Assembly: GCA_020851635.1 (NCBI GenBank)
Contig: JADZCJ010000018.1
Location: 1 to 50,451, forward strand
DNA length: 50,451 nucleotides
DNA from: Anaerolineae bacterium
GTDB taxonomy: Bacteria; Chloroflexota; Anaerolineae; UBA4142; SHND01
Direction: 5' to 3'
This document shows, piece by piece, positions 4,430 to 11,706 of this stretch. The notes below the pieces were generated by a model. It was given only the letters and a program-made list of their open reading frames with translations, searched no databases and was not told the DNA's origin. How positions within the stretch are numbered: the first letter of the stretch is position 1; the number at the start of each line of letters is the position of its first letter. The translations under genes and the position numbers were made by a program.

Positions 4430-4700
4430 CAAATTGAATGGGCGAAAATGGGCAGAGCGCGGAGGGTGTTGAGCGCGAAGGGCGTTTGGACCGCGAAAGC
4501 CGCGAAATGCGGTAAAGGGCACCGCCGCGAAAACCGCGAAAGAAACCCAAGCGCGAAAGGGTGCGAAAGCCGATGATTACATCGGGTGCGAAAGCCGATG
4601 TAATCATCGGGCACGAAAGGTGCGGTGGAAATACACCGCCTCGAAATGCGGTAGAGAGCACCGCCGCGCAAGAAAAGCCAAACCATCAGCCCGGGAAACG
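4430..4700. repeat. Cluster of GCGAAAG-type palindromic repeats
   Basis: Short units such as CCGCGAAAG, GTGCGAAAG and GAAATGCGGT recur many times. Two longer copies, GAAATGCGGTAAAGGGCACC (near 4506) and GAAATGCGGTAGAGAGCACC (near 4642), are close direct repeats. Small minus-strand frames here only translate the repeat and are not genes. Confidence 0.7.
4570..4610. repeat. Perfect 16-bp inverted repeat
   Basis: The arms at 4570-4585 and 4595-4610 are exact reverse complements (CCGATGATTACATCGG), separated by GTGCGAAAG. That spacer also occurs directly before the left arm, so the hairpin is nested in the direct repeat. Confidence 0.85.
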
Positions 4701-5184: not shown

Positions 5185-5193
5185 TGATATAAT
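5185..5193 (+). promoter_or_regulatory. Extended -10 promoter of the candidate RNA
   Basis: TGATATAAT matches the extended -10 consensus TGnTATAAT exactly. The predicted start, near 5200, coincides with the first base of the closing stem of the RNA. A TTGACA at 5175-5180 is only seven bases upstream of the -10, too close to serve as a normal -35. Confidence 0.65.
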
Positions 5194-5199
5194 AGAGGC

Positions 5200-5306
5200 G
5201 CCAGAGAAGAAAATCGGCTTTATGCCGTGTGAGCATTGGGCATTGCCCGAATGATCCTATATCTCTGGCAGTTCTCGTATAGCCGCTAATTTTAGCGGCT
5301 TTTTTT
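5200..5306 (+). ncRNA. Candidate structured RNA beside a DUF3800 gene
   Basis: The stretch folds as a closed multibranch RNA. A closing stem pairs GCCAGAGA (5200-5207) with TCTCTGGC (5262-5269). Inside are hairpin 1, CGGC-TTTAT-GCCG (5215-5227), and hairpin 2, CATTGGGC-ATT-GCCC-(G)-AATG (5234-5253). A 9-bp terminator stem (AGCCGCTAA/TTAGCGGCT, 5281-5300) follows, with a run of seven T from 5300. An extended -10 promoter places the start at the first stem base. The 3' half is antisense to the last codons of the DUF3800 frame: the terminator T-tract is the reverse of its Lys codons. Known: computationally found RNA motifs named after DUF3800 genes have been published; I cannot tell whether this is one of them. 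Inference: a small RNA functionally tied to the DUF3800 protein. Confidence 0.65.
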
Positions 5307-6096
5307 GTGTATAGTACACGCCATATCGTGTTTTGCGAGTGTCATCCAGATCAATGACAAGCCGGAACGATTTCCACAACAACTCTACATAACGTTCCTC
5401 GCGTCGTTCATACAATCGTTGTAACGCCCACAGAAAATAATCGGCAACTTGAAGACAGACTGTCTGCGGTGGGGCGCTTGCCGTAATTTCAATCGCTGAT
5501 TGACTTGTGATTCCTCAGCGCTGTTGGAAATTGGCTTGCGCTTTTTCCAATGCCGCGCGCAGGGCATCTGTGCGCGGAGTTTTGCCGCGCTGTGCGAAAC
5601 AGATTCTGTATGCCCCGGCCTTGTGCAGTTTTCCGTTAAATAAACGGGCCACCAGATTATCGTAGAGTTCATTCGGATTATAGCGGTATGCGGAATCGTA
5701 GCGATTGCGCGTCCGAACAAAATTAAGCAAGTCGGATTTGGTGCGGACAACCGCAAAGAACCGAATCGGGTGTTTCGATAATACCGCAAACACCTCGCGG
5801 CGCACCTCGGGCAAATCATCCTTGGCGTGAAAGGCAAGCGCGGTCTTGCGCGCGGCGGGCTGCATCGAAGGAACGTTTTTGAAATAAGGATCGGCAAGCA
5901 GCTGCGCGCGCAAAGCATCAAGTTCGCTTGCGAGTTGATCCGGATTTTCAATCTCGGCCAAGCCCAGAATGAAAAACCGCGTACAACCCTCTGTGCCAAT
6001 GATTACCCTGCCGGAAGCGCTAAAAAGAGTTCCGTCGCCCGCTTCGTCCACAAAGTAATGACAGGTCTCGGGTTGGCTGGTGCGCGTTTTTTTCAT
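5257..6096 (-). pseudogene. DUF3800 protein gene interrupted by an in-frame TGA
   Basis: The first 193 codons encode the N-terminal two thirds of a DUF3800 protein (predicted RNase-H-like fold), with the acidic motif YFVDEAGD near the start and a long conserved core. At 5515-5517 the frame meets TGA, but reading on in the same frame gives 85 more codons of clear DUF3800 C-terminus: VADYFLWALQRLYERREERY, then FRLVIDLDD and GVYYTQKKPL. The stop at 5257-5259 gives 279 codons. The TGA stands after FQQR and before GI, where Trp fits the family, so one TGG-to-TGA change explains it. It could be a nonsense mutation, an assembly error or a recoded site; other genes here use TGA as a normal stop. A small basic protein gene lies 35 bp upstream, and the candidate RNA overlaps the 3' end. 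Confidence 0.75.
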
Positions 6097-6131: not shown

Positions 6132-6449
6132 TCAACTGCGCTTACCAGAGCCGGGGAGTCCGCCGGAAATGGTATGTTCGTTTTTGAGACCATCCCGCGC
6201 AAACTTGGCTTTTCCGCCGGCGTCAAACCATTGAGCAGATTTTTTGGTTCTGCGCTTTTTCATGGATGGTTTGGCAGCCTTTTTCGTTACCTGTTTTTGG
6301 ATCGCTTGTTCATGGTGTCGTTTTGCGCGTTCGCTCTTGTCAAGTTTCTGTATTTCTCGTGCCTGCTGCAAGGCTTGATGTGTGCGTTGGCGCAGTTCGA
6401 ACTTTTGTTGGGGAGTCAGGTTCGCGCGCTTGGTGGGTTTGTTGTTCAT
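6132..6449 (-). CDS. Small Lys/Arg-rich protein upstream of DUF3800
   Basis: A 105-residue, strongly basic protein. The first 75 residues look helical and charged (QQKFELRQRTHQALQQAREI), and the end is different: QWFDAGGKAKFARDGLKNEH and a closing GGLPGSGKRS. I do not recognise a named family. It precedes the DUF3800 gene by 35 bp on the same strand, so the two are probably cotranscribed. It may be a nucleic-acid-binding partner, but this is inference. It starts seven bases after a truncated DUF4926 fragment, which places it at a junction in a decayed island. Confidence 0.5.
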   Translation of the reverse strand: MNNKPTKRANLTPQQKFELRQRTHQALQQAREIQKLDKSERAKRHHEQAIQKQVTKKAAKPSMKKRRTKKSAQWFDAGGKAKFARDGLKNEHTISGGLPGSGKRS

Positions 6450-6651: not shown

Positions 6652-9093
6652 TTATTCTCCCCACACCCGGGCGATGCGTTCCTTGATTTTCTTTTCAAAG
6701 AGGGCGACGAGTTCGCCGGTGGATTTGACGAGGGCTTGCTCGTGTTCGATTTGGGCGACGATGCGTTGTTGTATAGTAAGGTCGGGGAGAGGGACCACCA
6801 AGATCTTTAGCTCATCTCTATTAAACAATCCATTCACATTTTGGCGCATAAAATTCATATACTTGCGCTCGGCTCTATATTGATTTAACAAAAGCCAGAG
6901 GAACTTGGAGACAAAGCTTGATGAGAGTGGTCGAATCCCTAATAGGAATGACGCAAATACATAATCACCATCCCAATCAAAGTAACCTGTTTTTCCAACC
7001 AGCCGCTTACTTCCATTGCGCCAATTGAAAAGTAAGTCGCCTTTCTGCAGATAGTTTATGTTGCCCTTATCTGGCAACTGGATTTCTCGAATACCCTCTG
7101 GTATTAATTCTCCAGATTCAGTGATGCTATTCATAGAGATGATTGGTATGCCACCCTCTTCGACCTCAGAATCAGGGATCGAAAGCGTGAGACCGGAAAT
7201 GAATTCGATATGTTCCCCCAACGACACCATCTCCCACGCTGGATCAATCTCAATGCGCGGCTGATAGTTGTCCACCACCTGCCGCGCGCCGTCAATGATT
7301 TTTTGGTAGCCCTCAATTTCCGCGACGATTTCTTGCTGGATGGAGAGGGGAGGGAGGGGAATTTGGATTTTGTATGCGTCGTTCCGATTCAGCCCAGGAA
7401 CACCCGACTGAACATTGATTCCCTTGAGGTCGAGGCTTTTCAAAATGAGAAAGAGGTACTCTAGGACAATTCGATTCTCGTTTTCAAGCTTGATAAAGAA
7501 TGTCGTATCGATTGGGAAACCATTTTTGCTCGAATAATGTACTTCACCCGCTGAACCTTTTCTCCCTACCACCAAGAAGGGGGCTTGCACAAGGTATTCA
7601 TTGTGATATCCAACAACTCCATTTGAGCCAAAAACAGGATATTCGCCCGAAATGCGATCTTCTTGCTTTAGAGGTTTACCATACTCAAAGGTACAGAGTT
7701 CGCCGATTTCAACCAGAGGAAAGACGGTGAGTGTGCCAAGAGCTGCTTCTCTGTATCTCTCACCACTCAAATTATAGTCGCCATTTTCAGCAAGTCGCGC
7801 TTTCTCCACCAGCGTTACATTTGGATTTTCGATTTCAAAAGTATTACCACTCGCCAGCGCGGTTTTGTACGCCTCTATCGCAGACAGCATTTGCGGTAAA
7901 TCGTTCTGTTTGATTTCTCGCCGCTGTGCGCCCAGATCAAAGCCGTCGTTGGCGACTTTGACAAATAGAATTTGGTCAGTCTTGGTCGCGAGCGTCCGAT
8001 CCATCCACAAGATGGATGTTTTGACGCCCGAGTACGGATTGAACACACCGGCAGGAAGCGAAATGACGCCGACCAAATAATTGTTGTCAACCAGTGTCTT
8101 GCGGAGGGCTTTGTAGGCGCTGCCGGATTGAAAGATGATGCCCTCGGGGACGACGACGGCGGCACGCCCGTTGGCGGTGAGATGTTCGGCAATGTAATCC
8201 ACAAAGAGGACTTCGGAACGGTTGGACTGGACCGAAAAACGCTTGTGGGGGCGGATGCCGCCTTTGGGTGACATGAACGGCGGATTTGCCATGATGACGT
8301 CGGCATAGTCGTTCCAATGATCCTCGCTGGTGAGAGTGTCGTATTCGTAAATGTGGGGGTCGGCAAAACCGTGCAGATAGAGGTTGACGAGCGAGAGGCG
8401 CACCATGTCGGGCGAAATGTCATAACCCTTGATGTTCTTGGTCAGGCGGGCGCGTTCGTCGGGGATGATGAGCGCGCCGGGTCTGCCATCCAGAGCGTTG
8501 GCGTTCAGGATGTGTTTGTAGGCGGAGACCAAAAAGCCCGCCGTGCCGCACGCGGGGTCGAGGATGGTCTCGTTTTTCTGCGGGTCTATTACGTCCACCA
8601 GAAAGTCAATGATGTGGCGCGGGGTGCGAAATTGTCCTGCGTCGCCCTGACTGCCCAGGACCGAAAGGAGATACTCGAACGCGTCGCCGAGACGTTCGCT
8701 GTGGTCGTAGGAAAAATCGTCAATGAGCTTGAGAAACGCCTTGAGCGTTTCGGGGTCGCGATAAGGGAGATAGGCGTTTTTGAAAATGTCGCGAAAGAGT
8801 GCGGGAATGCCCTGATTCTCGGTCATGCGGGCGATGGCTTCGCCGTAGAGGGTGACGACGTCATAGCCGCCCATGCCGACCGCGGTGAGTTTGGACCAAC
8901 TGTATTTTTCAAATTCGCCCGCGAAAAACGTGCGCTCGCCGCCGAGCTCTTCGGCTTGGGCGTCCATGTCGTTCATGAATTTATAGATGAGCGCGATGGT
9001 GATTTGTTCGACCTGGCTTTTGGGGTCGGGGACTTTGCCGACGAGGATATCGCGGGCGGTATCTATGCGGCGTTTCGTTTCGGTGTCGAGCAT
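6652..9093 (-). CDS. Type I restriction-modification fusion: HsdM methyltransferase with HsdS specificity domains
   Basis: At 813 residues this joins two normally separate subunits. Residues 1-450 are an HsdM-type N6-adenine methyltransferase: an N-terminal helical domain, the SAM motif ILDPACGTAGFLV near residue 178, and the catalytic NPPF near residue 268. Residues about 455-575 and 630-770 are two target recognition domains, each followed by a helical spacer (PLPPLSIQQEIVAEIEGYQK and PLPDLTIQQRIVAQIEHEQA). It would both choose the DNA site and methylate it. HsdR is directly upstream on the same strand. The two recognition domains are visibly more AT-rich than the methyltransferase and the spacer between them, a sign of domain exchange. 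Confidence 0.93.
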   Translation of the reverse strand: MLDTETKRRIDTARDILVGKVPDPKSQVEQITIALIYKFMNDMDAQAEELGGERTFFAGEFEKYSWSKLTAVGMGGYDVVTLYGEAIARMTENQGIPALFRDIFKNAYLPYRDPETLKAFLKLIDDFSYDHSERLGDAFEYLLSVLGSQGDAGQFRTPRHIIDFLVDVIDPQKNETILDPACGTAGFLVSAYKHILNANALDGRPGALIIPDERARLTKNIKGYDISPDMVRLSLVNLYLHGFADPHIYEYDTLTSEDHWNDYADVIMANPPFMSPKGGIRPHKRFSVQSNRSEVLFVDYIAEHLTANGRAAVVVPEGIIFQSGSAYKALRKTLVDNNYLVGVISLPAGVFNPYSGVKTSILWMDRTLATKTDQILFVKVANDGFDLGAQRREIKQNDLPQMLSAIEAYKTALASGNTFEIENPNVTLVEKARLAENGDYNLSGERYREAALGTLTVFPLVEIGELCTFEYGKPLKQEDRISGEYPVFGSNGVVGYHNEYLVQAPFLVVGRKGSAGEVHYSSKNGFPIDTTFFIKLENENRIVLEYLFLILKSLDLKGINVQSGVPGLNRNDAYKIQIPLPPLSIQQEIVAEIEGYQKIIDGARQVVDNYQPRIEIDPAWEMVSLGEHIEFISGLTLSIPDSEVEEGGIPIISMNSITESGELIPEGIREIQLPDKGNINYLQKGDLLFNWRNGSKRLVGKTGYFDWDGDYVFASFLLGIRPLSSSFVSKFLWLLLNQYRAERKYMNFMRQNVNGLFNRDELKILVVPLPDLTIQQRIVAQIEHEQALVKSTGELVALFEKKIKERIARVWGE

Positions 9094-9165: not shown

Positions 9166-11706
9166 CTACGAGGGCAGGAACTGGTTGAGCGTGACGTAAT
9201 CCTTGATGTATTCGGGAATTTCTGTGCGCCACCGTTCGGGGACGGCTTTATAGTCCTGCATGGTAAAAGTGGGGTTGGTTTGCAGTTCGTTAAACTTTTT
9301 GCGGTCAATCATGTCGCGCACGCGCCCATCCGAGATGTAGGCTTGAAAGAAATATTTGAGCGCGAGGATGCTCTCGGGCGAATCGGGCTTGCGGTCGGCG
9401 ACGAATTTATCAAACTCGTCCTGTAACAGTTCTTGTTTGGATTTGAACGCGGGGATGAGACCGAACGCTTTTTCAATGATCTCGCGCAGGGAAAGGCGAC
9501 GGTCAATTCCGGCGGCGCGGCGCAGTTTTTCGAGGGTATAAAATTCTTCGGGTTTGTTCAAGACATGGGTGTTGACGTAATCGAGAATGGCGTCCCACTG
9601 GCCCTGCTCGATGCGCGTTTTGATAAAGGGGTCTTGCTTGACCCGGTCCTGAAAGCGGTCAAAAAACATGCGGTCAATCTTCATGCCTTCTGAACCTATT
9701 TTGATTTCGTTGAGCTTGCGCAGCGCGTCGGGGTCGAAATTTTCATAGTTGGCAAGGACGACGGTCTCGCCCGCGCCGCGCTCGACTGATTCGCCCGCAG
9801 GCAAGGGGGGGAGCGCAAGGACCTGGTCATACTTGAATTCCTTTTCAAAGTACTCACAGGTGGCAAAGAAATCAAAGAGTTTATAGTTTGTTTTTGCGAC
9901 CTTGCCGAGTTGGGCGACGAGCGCGGGGGCGGTCACTTGCTCGGTAAAGTTGTGGGTACGAGTGCCGCGTCCTTTCATCTGGATAAAATCGGTGGGCGAA
10001 AATATCGGACGCATCAAGCAAAGATTCAACAGGTCGGTGCAGTCATAGCCGGTCGTCATCATGCCGACGGTGACGCAGACGCGGGTCTTGCTCGTTTTGT
10101 ACGCGGGCAAAAAGTTGGCAGAGCCGCTCAGGTTGTTGTTGGTAAAGTTGATGGCAAACTGCTGGGCATCGGCGACGGCGGATGTGACTTGAATGGCAAA
10201 GTCGGAATTGTATTGATTCGGGTAGATTTTGTCCGCCATCTCGTTCAGAATTTGGGTCAGTTTTGCAGCGTGCGCCTGGCTGACCGCAAAAATTATAGTC
10301 TTGCCGATTTCGCCGCTGATTGGGTCGCGCAGGGCGTGCTCGAGAAAGGTCTTGCAAAAGAGGCGATTCGTGGCTTCGGAAAAGAATTTCTTTTCAAAAT
10401 CGCGCTGATCAAAGAATTGCTCGGCATCTATGCCGTCCTCGGTCGGCACAAGCACCGCATAACCCTCATCGGAAAGTAATTGGGTCGTGACGTCGGTCCG
10501 CGCGTCCACAACCGTAGGATTGATCAAATAGCCCTCGCGGACGCCGTCGAGGAGCGAATAGCGAAAGGTGGGGGTTCCGTCGTCACAACCAAAGGTGCGG
10601 TAGGTGTCGAGCAGGACGCGGCGCTCGTACTCGCGCGGGTCGCGGGTGGTCGGGCGGGCATGGTCGAACTTGATCAAATAATCGCGCGGGGTGGCGGTCA
10701 AACCGAGTTTATAACCGACGAAATATTCAAAAACAGCGCGGGCGTTGCCGCCGATGGAACGGTGCGCCTCGTCGGAAATGATCAGATCGAAATCGGTCGG
10801 TGAAAAGAGTTTTTTGTATTTGTTGTCGGACAAGAGCGACTGGACGGTAGTCACGACAATCTCGGCTTTGGTCCAATCGTCGCGATTTTCTTTATAGATG
10901 ACGGTTTTGAAATCGTTTTTCAGCAAAAGCGTAAATTGTTTTTTTGCCTGGTCTTCGAGCTCGAGACGGTCCACCAGAAACAAAACGCGGTGCGCGTTTT
11001 TGGTGCGCAAAAACAATTTGATCACGGCGGCGGCTGTGAGCGTTTTGCCCGTGCCGGTCGCCATTTCAAACAAAAAGCGGTCGCGACCCTTGCTCACCGC
11101 GTCCTGCAATTTTTGGATTGCATTTAGTTGATACGGACGCAGAAAGCGGAGGCGGTTCGTTTCGATAAAATGCTCGCGCTCGTCCGCGTTTTTCCAACCC
11201 GCTTCGTCACGGTATTTCGGCAGTTGGGTAAGGACAATATAATCTTCGTCCACATATTCGGATACAAGCGCGGCGGGGTTGGGTTGGTAACGCTTGTAAC
11301 CGACGACCGAAGCGGGGTCGGGAAATTGAGTGATGACGTATGGGCTGCCGTGCCGGAGATCCCAAAAGTAGTGGAGGTTGCCGTTGGAGAGGATGATGAA
11401 ACGACAGTTTTGAGATTTGGCGTAGGTGCGCGCTTGCTCTTTACCGACAAGGGGATTTTTTTCTTCGGATTTGGCTTCGAGGACGATCAGGGGAAAGCCT
11501 GATGGGTCAAGGAGTAAAAAATCAATAAAACCGTTTTTGGTGGTCTCGAAATTTTCACCAAACGCGTTGAGCTGTGCCTGGGTGATCCTGGTGTGGGTCT
11601 CGAGTTGAATGTTTGCCCTGCCGTTGGCGTCGTCAAAGAAACGCCAACCGGCTTGATCGAGCAACCGATTGATTTTGATGCGCGCTTTTGCTTCTTTGCT
11701 GGGCAT
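9166..11706 (-). CDS. hsdR: Type I restriction enzyme R subunit
   Basis: This 846-residue protein is the motor and nuclease of the type I system. The N-terminal nuclease has the PD-(D/E)XK pattern with Asp62 and the E77-A-K79 triad. The helicase core has ATGTGKT at residues 216-222 and DEAH at 312-315, with later motifs including TVGMMTTGYD and MKGRGTRTHN. The C-terminal part is the helical region that contacts the methyltransferase. It precedes the hsdM-S fusion, separated by 72 bp of palindromic repeat. A possible -10 (TATAAT, 11752-11747) lies about 40 bp upstream. Confidence 0.95.
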   Translation of the reverse strand: MPSKEAKARIKINRLLDQAGWRFFDDANGRANIQLETHTRITQAQLNAFGENFETTKNGFIDFLLLDPSGFPLIVLEAKSEEKNPLVGKEQARTYAKSQNCRFIILSNGNLHYFWDLRHGSPYVITQFPDPASVVGYKRYQPNPAALVSEYVDEDYIVLTQLPKYRDEAGWKNADEREHFIETNRLRFLRPYQLNAIQKLQDAVSKGRDRFLFEMATGTGKTLTAAAVIKLFLRTKNAHRVLFLVDRLELEDQAKKQFTLLLKNDFKTVIYKENRDDWTKAEIVVTTVQSLLSDNKYKKLFSPTDFDLIISDEAHRSIGGNARAVFEYFVGYKLGLTATPRDYLIKFDHARPTTRDPREYERRVLLDTYRTFGCDDGTPTFRYSLLDGVREGYLINPTVVDARTDVTTQLLSDEGYAVLVPTEDGIDAEQFFDQRDFEKKFFSEATNRLFCKTFLEHALRDPISGEIGKTIIFAVSQAHAAKLTQILNEMADKIYPNQYNSDFAIQVTSAVADAQQFAINFTNNNLSGSANFLPAYKTSKTRVCVTVGMMTTGYDCTDLLNLCLMRPIFSPTDFIQMKGRGTRTHNFTEQVTAPALVAQLGKVAKTNYKLFDFFATCEYFEKEFKYDQVLALPPLPAGESVERGAGETVVLANYENFDPDALRKLNEIKIGSEGMKIDRMFFDRFQDRVKQDPFIKTRIEQGQWDAILDYVNTHVLNKPEEFYTLEKLRRAAGIDRRLSLREIIEKAFGLIPAFKSKQELLQDEFDKFVADRKPDSPESILALKYFFQAYISDGRVRDMIDRKKFNELQTNPTFTMQDYKAVPERWRTEIPEYIKDYVTLNQFLPS

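Follow-up and report, generated by a model that had tools for sequence, protein, structure and literature searches.

Several described systems place a nuclease or other toxic effector under the control of an RNA or of a linked protein. The precedent for an RNA antitoxin is ToxIN (PMC5772629), a type III toxin-antitoxin system in which the ToxI RNA consists of repeats and is co-transcribed with its toxin (PMC8860590, PMC5772629), and retrons use a nucleic acid complex to sequester a toxic effector (PMC12548924). The anticodon nuclease PrrC is silenced by a restriction-modification (RM) protein to which it is linked (PMC2610378). Proteins of the DUF3800 family accompany Cas12a2 as well as CRISPR loci of type VI-F (PMC10910872, PMC12669027). 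RNA motifs linked to DUF3800 genes have already been catalogued without an assigned function, and a new family makes the question testable. The original paper on these RNAs reportedly contains eleven motifs, and we confirmed that Rfam holds DUF3800-I, II, III, VI, VII, and IX.

Here we describe a further RNA of this kind, located in the window, a 50,451-nt stretch of DNA from a 5.8-Mb Anaerolineae genome bin. Our preferred reading, to which we give a probability of roughly 0.5 for the module as a whole, is that the RNA is an antitoxin that silences a DUF3800 defence nuclease. The proposed inhibition of a phage-defence nuclease by an RNA resembles ToxIN. In contrast to the tandem-repeat, toxin-co-transcribed RNA of type III systems, the DUF3800 RNA is a single fold made on the opposite strand from its own promoter, and the RNase HII/PIWI fold predicted for DUF3800 is a further difference. 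With retron effectors the protein shares a match to the DUF3800_VII model, which we take to be assigned to type VII retrons; no reverse transcriptase was found among the recurrent neighbour families, including nine that were scanned with Pfam. PrrC and RloC belong to different protein families, PrrC being likewise associated with an RM enzyme, and we know of no small RNA partner for PrrC. The features of the locus are as follows.

5185 to 5193, plus strand: extended -10 promoter element of the RNA, TGATATAAT (sequence read-out and promoter scan).
5200 to 5306, plus strand: structured small RNA, type A of the DUF3800-associated family (folding, covariance model, and covariation).
5200 to 5207, plus strand: 5' strand of the 8-bp closing stem P1, GCCAGAGA, pairing with 5262 to 5269.
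5215 to 5227, plus strand: hairpin P2 of 4 bp, CGGC-loop-GCCG, near-invariant (alignment of relatives).
5231 to 5256, plus strand: hairpin P3, longer than P2, with variable sequence and conserved structure (covariation).
5257 to 5261, plus strand: conserved CUAUA linker from P3 to the 3' strand of P1 (invariant alignment columns).
5262 to 5269, plus strand: 3' strand of P1, TCTCTGGC, pairing with 5200 to 5207.
5281 to 5306, plus strand: intrinsic terminator with an 8-bp stem (5281 to 5300) and a T-tract, inside the 3' coding end of DUF3800.
5257 to 6096, minus strand: DUF3800 gene (PF12686) of 279 codons, interrupted; predicted RNase HII/PIWI-fold nuclease.
5515 to 5517, minus strand: in-frame TGA at a conserved Trp codon of DUF3800 (comparison with relatives).
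6652 to 9093, minus strand: type I RM HsdM-HsdS fusion, upstream of DUF3800 on the same strand.
9166 to 11706, minus strand: type I restriction protein HsdR (genomic context).

The promoter element contains a TATAAT hexamer at 5188 to 5193, is accompanied by a weak -35 (promoter scan), and sets the predicted start of transcription at about 5200, so that the RNA would begin with the first base of P1, as a first-pass annotation made from the sequence had claimed. The remainder of the unit described there, a closing stem around two hairpins followed by a terminator with a T-tract and about 107 nt long in all, was likewise found in the sequence. The folding z-score of the window RNA is -3.81, an equally stable fold arose in only 1 of 200 dinucleotide shuffles, and the terminator was called on the plus strand only. 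A scan designed with the target already known found the combination of extended -10, 8-bp closing stem, and terminator once in the 50 kb and not in any of 10 shuffles. Between an rplS-like gene and the RNA, positions 4455 to 4619 hold short tandem repeats with GCGAAAG-containing units.

The claimed antisense overlap is correct when the full DUF3800 frame is considered, the RNA covering its final 50 nt. It does not hold for the open reading frame as encoded, which ends at the TGA about 210 nt short of the RNA, an interruption that the earlier annotation had missed. This TGA removes the C-terminal part of the protein, including an invariant Asp-Tyr (D217 of homologue L058), and the frame beyond it is intact and conserved. 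Because relatives keep Trp at this codon, the window gene would be either a young pseudogene or the victim of a sequencing error. Recoding of the TGA as Trp or selenocysteine was considered and rejected, since the TGA in a relative (G143) is a natural stop and there is thus no shared recoding. The genes of the region are ordered hsdR, hsdM-S, small open reading frame, and DUF3800. The small frame (6132 to 6449, minus strand) encodes a basic protein of 105 amino acids with no match in Pfam, PADLOC, or NCBIfam.

BLASTN against 149 related genomes located the RNA in several families, where it lies at the 3' ends of DUF3800 genes. With a profile (A1) of 18 DUF3800 proteins, 80 loci were fetched from public genomes; they were selected by similarity to the window's DUF3800 clade, and many are metagenome bins, in which a frameshift may reflect an error and a gene may be absent from the bin. 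About ten phyla are represented (Chloroflexota, Cyanobacteria, Poribacteria, Planctomycetota, Verrucomicrobiota, Pseudomonadota, Deltaproteobacteria, Acetothermia/Bipolaricaulota, Latescibacterota, Neomarinimicrobiota, and WOR-3), and the loci most similar to the window come mostly from Chloroflexota bins. We built two covariance models, both with rough E-values: R1 from 14 Chloroflexota RNAs and R2 from type B RNAs (see below). R1, which scores the window RNA at 80.1 bits, detected the RNA at all 80 loci (45 to 96 bits), in every case at the stop codon of DUF3800 and on the other strand. Absence of the RNA beside related DUF3800 genes, which the first-pass annotation had considered fatal to its proposal, was therefore not observed, and the consistent adjacency is that of the DUF3800-associated sRNAs. 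The end of the RNA core lies between -105 and +16 nt from the stop codon (median -18), and 53 of the 80 loci have a sigma-70 promoter with a score of 9 or more out of 12 that ends about 5 nt before P1, against 5.1 on average in shuffled sequence.

Homologues vary the sequence of the RNA while preserving its pairing. Among 79 distinct sequences, standard pairs fill 93.3% of pair cells and double-sided changes occur in 18 of 21 pairs, P1 having both sides changed in 7 of its 8 model pairs; the covariation score of 0.450 compares with 0.040 to 0.080 when the partner is slid. Because this alignment had been fitted to the model, all column pairs were also compared with a null simulated along a FastTree tree, with a cut-off of E < 0.05. 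Ten column pairs were significant against this phylogenetic null and all ten fall within the structure, so the covariation of stems across homologues that had been named beforehand as the check on the fold is very strong. The RNA in this respect, too, resembles the DUF3800-associated sRNAs, with a secondary structure supported by covariation.

Three forms of the RNA, types A, B, and C, have a common core that runs from P1 through a GA-rich joining strand, P2, P3, and CUA back to P1. In this core P2 reads CGGC-YYCAU-GCCG, is 100% paired across homologues, and has conserved flanks (GAAA..U and GUG), and the apical loop of P3 is usually a UNCG-like tetraloop. A separate terminator follows the core in type A, to which the window RNA belongs. 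In types B and C a long P1 runs directly into the U-tract, P1 itself being the terminator in type B, and the partner DUF3800 proteins are more distant from that of the window. R2 finds type C RNAs (loci L038 and L052) at an E-value of about 1e-7 and the window RNA at 0.0012. At L052, where DUF3800 has 37% identity and R1 only grazes or misses the RNA, the type C RNA carries a compensated pair in P2. We also asked whether the P2 loop, read as 7 nt, mimics an anticodon (U-Y-C-A), and rejected this because the loop varies (CAU, CAG, CAC, or CAA) and longer loops occur.

The Rfam search that the first-pass annotation had proposed gave no DUF3800 RNA family as a match to the window RNA, either at the gathering threshold or at E 10. 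Neither the window RNA nor its relatives matched any family at the gathering threshold, and matches at E 10 were at chance level (rseX, with 24 bits against a gathering threshold of 50). As a positive control, the same search found RF02968, the DUF3800-IX RNA, at loci L176, L225, L226, and L231. In the same genomes, RNAs of known families stand beside other DUF3800 clades, DUF3800-III at six loci (L227, L228, L230, L232, L233, and L241) and DUF3800-IX at eight (L225, L226, L231, L239, L245, L247, L248, and L253), and both are arranged tail-to-tail with their partner genes as the window RNA is. DUF3800-VI (L237), by contrast, is found upstream of its gene. The suggested tie to the DUF3800 motifs was therefore right in kind, and the window RNA belongs to the DUF3800 RNAs but to a family not yet catalogued.

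DUF3800-IX is like the window RNA in its position and orientation relative to DUF3800 and in its three-way-junction topology, in which a closing stem that continues into a U-tract, as in type B, is followed by GAA, P2, P3, UAG, and the return of the closing stem. It differs in the sequence of P2 and in having a partner DUF3800 from a different clade. RF02968 does not match the window RNA or its relatives even at E 10, and R1 and R2 both miss the DUF3800-IX RNAs. Homology to DUF3800-IX by covariance model was accordingly rejected, and because R2 recovers types A and C but not IX we claim only a common topology and position. The DUF3800-III RNA (RF02962) occupies the same tail-to-tail place, has a larger model of 108 positions, and gives no match to the window RNA. 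At one locus (L176 4898-5075, G012:C204), a window-type RNA and a DUF3800-IX RNA stand directly in tandem beside a DUF3800 gene of another clade, and both RNAs point toward that gene.

To characterize the protein, an AlphaFold model was made for a relative 66% identical to the window protein from 59 sequences (pLDDT 91, pTM 0.90). Its top structural match is RNase HII (Foldseek E 4e-5, Z 11.2), followed by the PIWI domains of Argonautes (Z 9.3). DUF3800 models as an RNase HII/PIWI-like nuclease, and this RNase HII-like fold, which would place it among the RNase H-fold nucleases, agrees with the RNase H fold published for DUF3800 (PMC10910872). In the alignment of DUF3800 proteins E16, D19, and D217 are invariant and D15 is nearly so. 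A sequence search of the PDB returned no credible relative. The PADLOC defence family DUF3800_VII matches the protein with E-values from 5e-15 to 1e-23.

RM genes recur beside these units. By tblastn with ten query proteins, in which type I, type III, ISP, and Eco57I-like genes or an SNF2 helicase of the same operons were counted, an RM gene lies within 3 kb at 27 of the 80 loci, the nearest being on the same strand at 26, compared with none in a small control set of 20 stretches taken from four genomes of a single phylum, Chloroflexota (Fisher p 0.0013). Gene orders such as hsdM-DUF3800-hsdS and mod-DUF3800-res are typical. The other two thirds of the units lack an RM gene in this 3-kb range.

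The RNA is frequently present where the gene is not. It was detected in 46 of 396 genomes of the class (E 0.01), and among 39 well-scoring RNA loci DUF3800 is intact at 17, interrupted at 3 (the window included), a remnant at 6, and missing at 13, so that the gene is broken, partial, or absent beside 22 of the 39. No intact DUF3800 of the clade was found without the RNA, the locus missed by R1 (L052) having a type C RNA. A PF12686 search at E 0.001 found nothing in five genomes that carry the RNA (G085, G235, G277, G292, and G308). Four species of one genus have no intact DUF3800 beside the RNA and share a core of 72 nt that is 100% identical; one of them (G285) has a second, intact unit elsewhere in its genome. 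Outside the core, five-way identity within this genus falls to 62% for the promoter, 27% for the flank toward DUF3800, and 17% for sequence lying further upstream. From the contrast between an unchanged core and diverged flanks, selection appears to act on the RNA even when it has no DUF3800 neighbour. Read by eye, the surroundings of solitary RNAs often contain defence-type genes.

Together, the loss of the gene but not of the RNA, the nuclease fold, and the RM neighbourhood point toward an RNA antidote of a defence nuclease. The RNA would be made from its own strong promoter, fold into a three-way junction of P1, the invariant P2, and P3, and bind and silence the RNase H-fold nuclease whose gene faces it tail-to-tail; the module would often ride in RM operons as a guard. 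A phage that halted transcription, targeted the RNA, or interfered with restriction would cause the short-lived RNA to be lost, whereupon the freed nuclease would stop the infected cell. The binding of RNA to protein, the inhibition, the toxicity, and the trigger are inferred. As the RNA outlasts the gene whereas the gene was never found without it, the antitoxin is the best-fitting of the three roles that had been offered, and the asymmetry of loss, structural conservation, nuclease fold, and guard-like position are best fitted by an RNA antitoxin. The guide and the antisense regulator, which had been offered beside it, fit poorly. If the antitoxin reading is true, this would be a new RNA-antitoxin architecture that may explain other DUF3800 RNA families too. 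Tentatively, and with a little less confidence than in the module itself, we extend it to a phylum-spanning class in which compact three-way-junction RNAs, transcribed opposite the gene, silence RNase HII/PIWI-fold nucleases that guard RM systems, the catalogued DUF3800 RNAs (at least III and IX) are sister antitoxins, and orphan RNAs serve as immunity genes when DUF3800 elements arrive. One oddity is the perfect conservation of orphan RNAs without DUF3800, which would imply either recurrent exposure to DUF3800 genes or a second function; an anti-addiction idea has been discussed for type II antitoxins (PMC7354431). The module offers a simple test case, with one protein, one 107-nt RNA, and cultured carriers.

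The linkage at 80 of 80 loci would also arise if the RNA were a cofactor, and the strongest of the other explanations, although an unlikely one, is a ribonucleoprotein in which the DUF3800 nuclease needs the RNA, as a structural cofactor or guide, to become active against phage nucleic acid. Such a role is consistent with the obligate linkage, with the predicted PIWI/RNase HII fold, with the occurrence of DUF3800 beside Cas12a2 and type VI-F loci noted above, and with the correlation between RNA and protein distances (Mantel r 0.586). A cofactor would be expected to disappear along with its protein; 22 of the 39 RNAs, however, stand beside a broken, partial, or absent gene, and in the one genus compared the RNA stays unchanged. 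A guide, for its part, should expose a variable segment and none is free, since P3 is usually capped by UNCG-like loops and the closing stem of type B is the terminator.

Slightly less probable still is an independent trans-acting small RNA with a cellular job of its own, of which DUF3800 would be a frequent passenger or regulator. Identical RNAs in several species with no detectable DUF3800 speak for this explanation, but it does not sit well with strict co-occurrence and fixed orientation in distant phyla, with the other RNA families that hold the same place by other DUF3800 clades and so tie RNA to protein, or with the defence-gene surroundings of many solitary copies. We regard as improbable a cis-antisense regulator, in which DUF3800 expression is lowered, by antisense pairing or by convergent interference, when the RNA is transcribed into the 3' end of the gene. 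The tail-to-tail overlap and the position of the terminator within the coding end would suit it; however, the overlap is small and variable across loci, the covarying part is an intramolecular fold, and orphan RNAs have no mRNA with which to pair. Terminators are common at gene ends, but a chance fold or a bidirectional terminator of the DUF3800 operon with no RNA function is refuted by the covariation, and also opposed by the conserved promoter, the conservation of orphans, and a terminator on the plus strand only, leaving it a negligible probability.

Several further observations concern copies outside the window. The window's genome has a second RNA, of type B and solitary (G000:C121:11729-11817; L184 and L274), which adjoins a large helicase/restriction-like gene and has no DUF3800 found nearby. 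A second, divergent DUF3800 of the same genome (L224, G000:C74) is followed past its stop, at about 1584 to 1730, by a DUF3800-IX-like fold that scores below the Rfam threshold. At five loci (L171 and L191-L194), the inverted repeat GCAAATT-NNN-AATTTGC, possibly an operator, lies about 60 nt upstream of the RNA, ahead of its promoter, and is largely conserved within one genus. A search of a phage collection gave no match and one of a plasmid collection gave a single plasmid, which is cyanobacterial; IMG/VR contigs classed as viral (L216-L218) carry both DUF3800 and the RNA. In Pseudomonas farris, a C4 antisense RNA and its targets (L126 12378-12574), of a P4-type satellite or phage, lie about 6 kb from the DUF3800-RNA unit.
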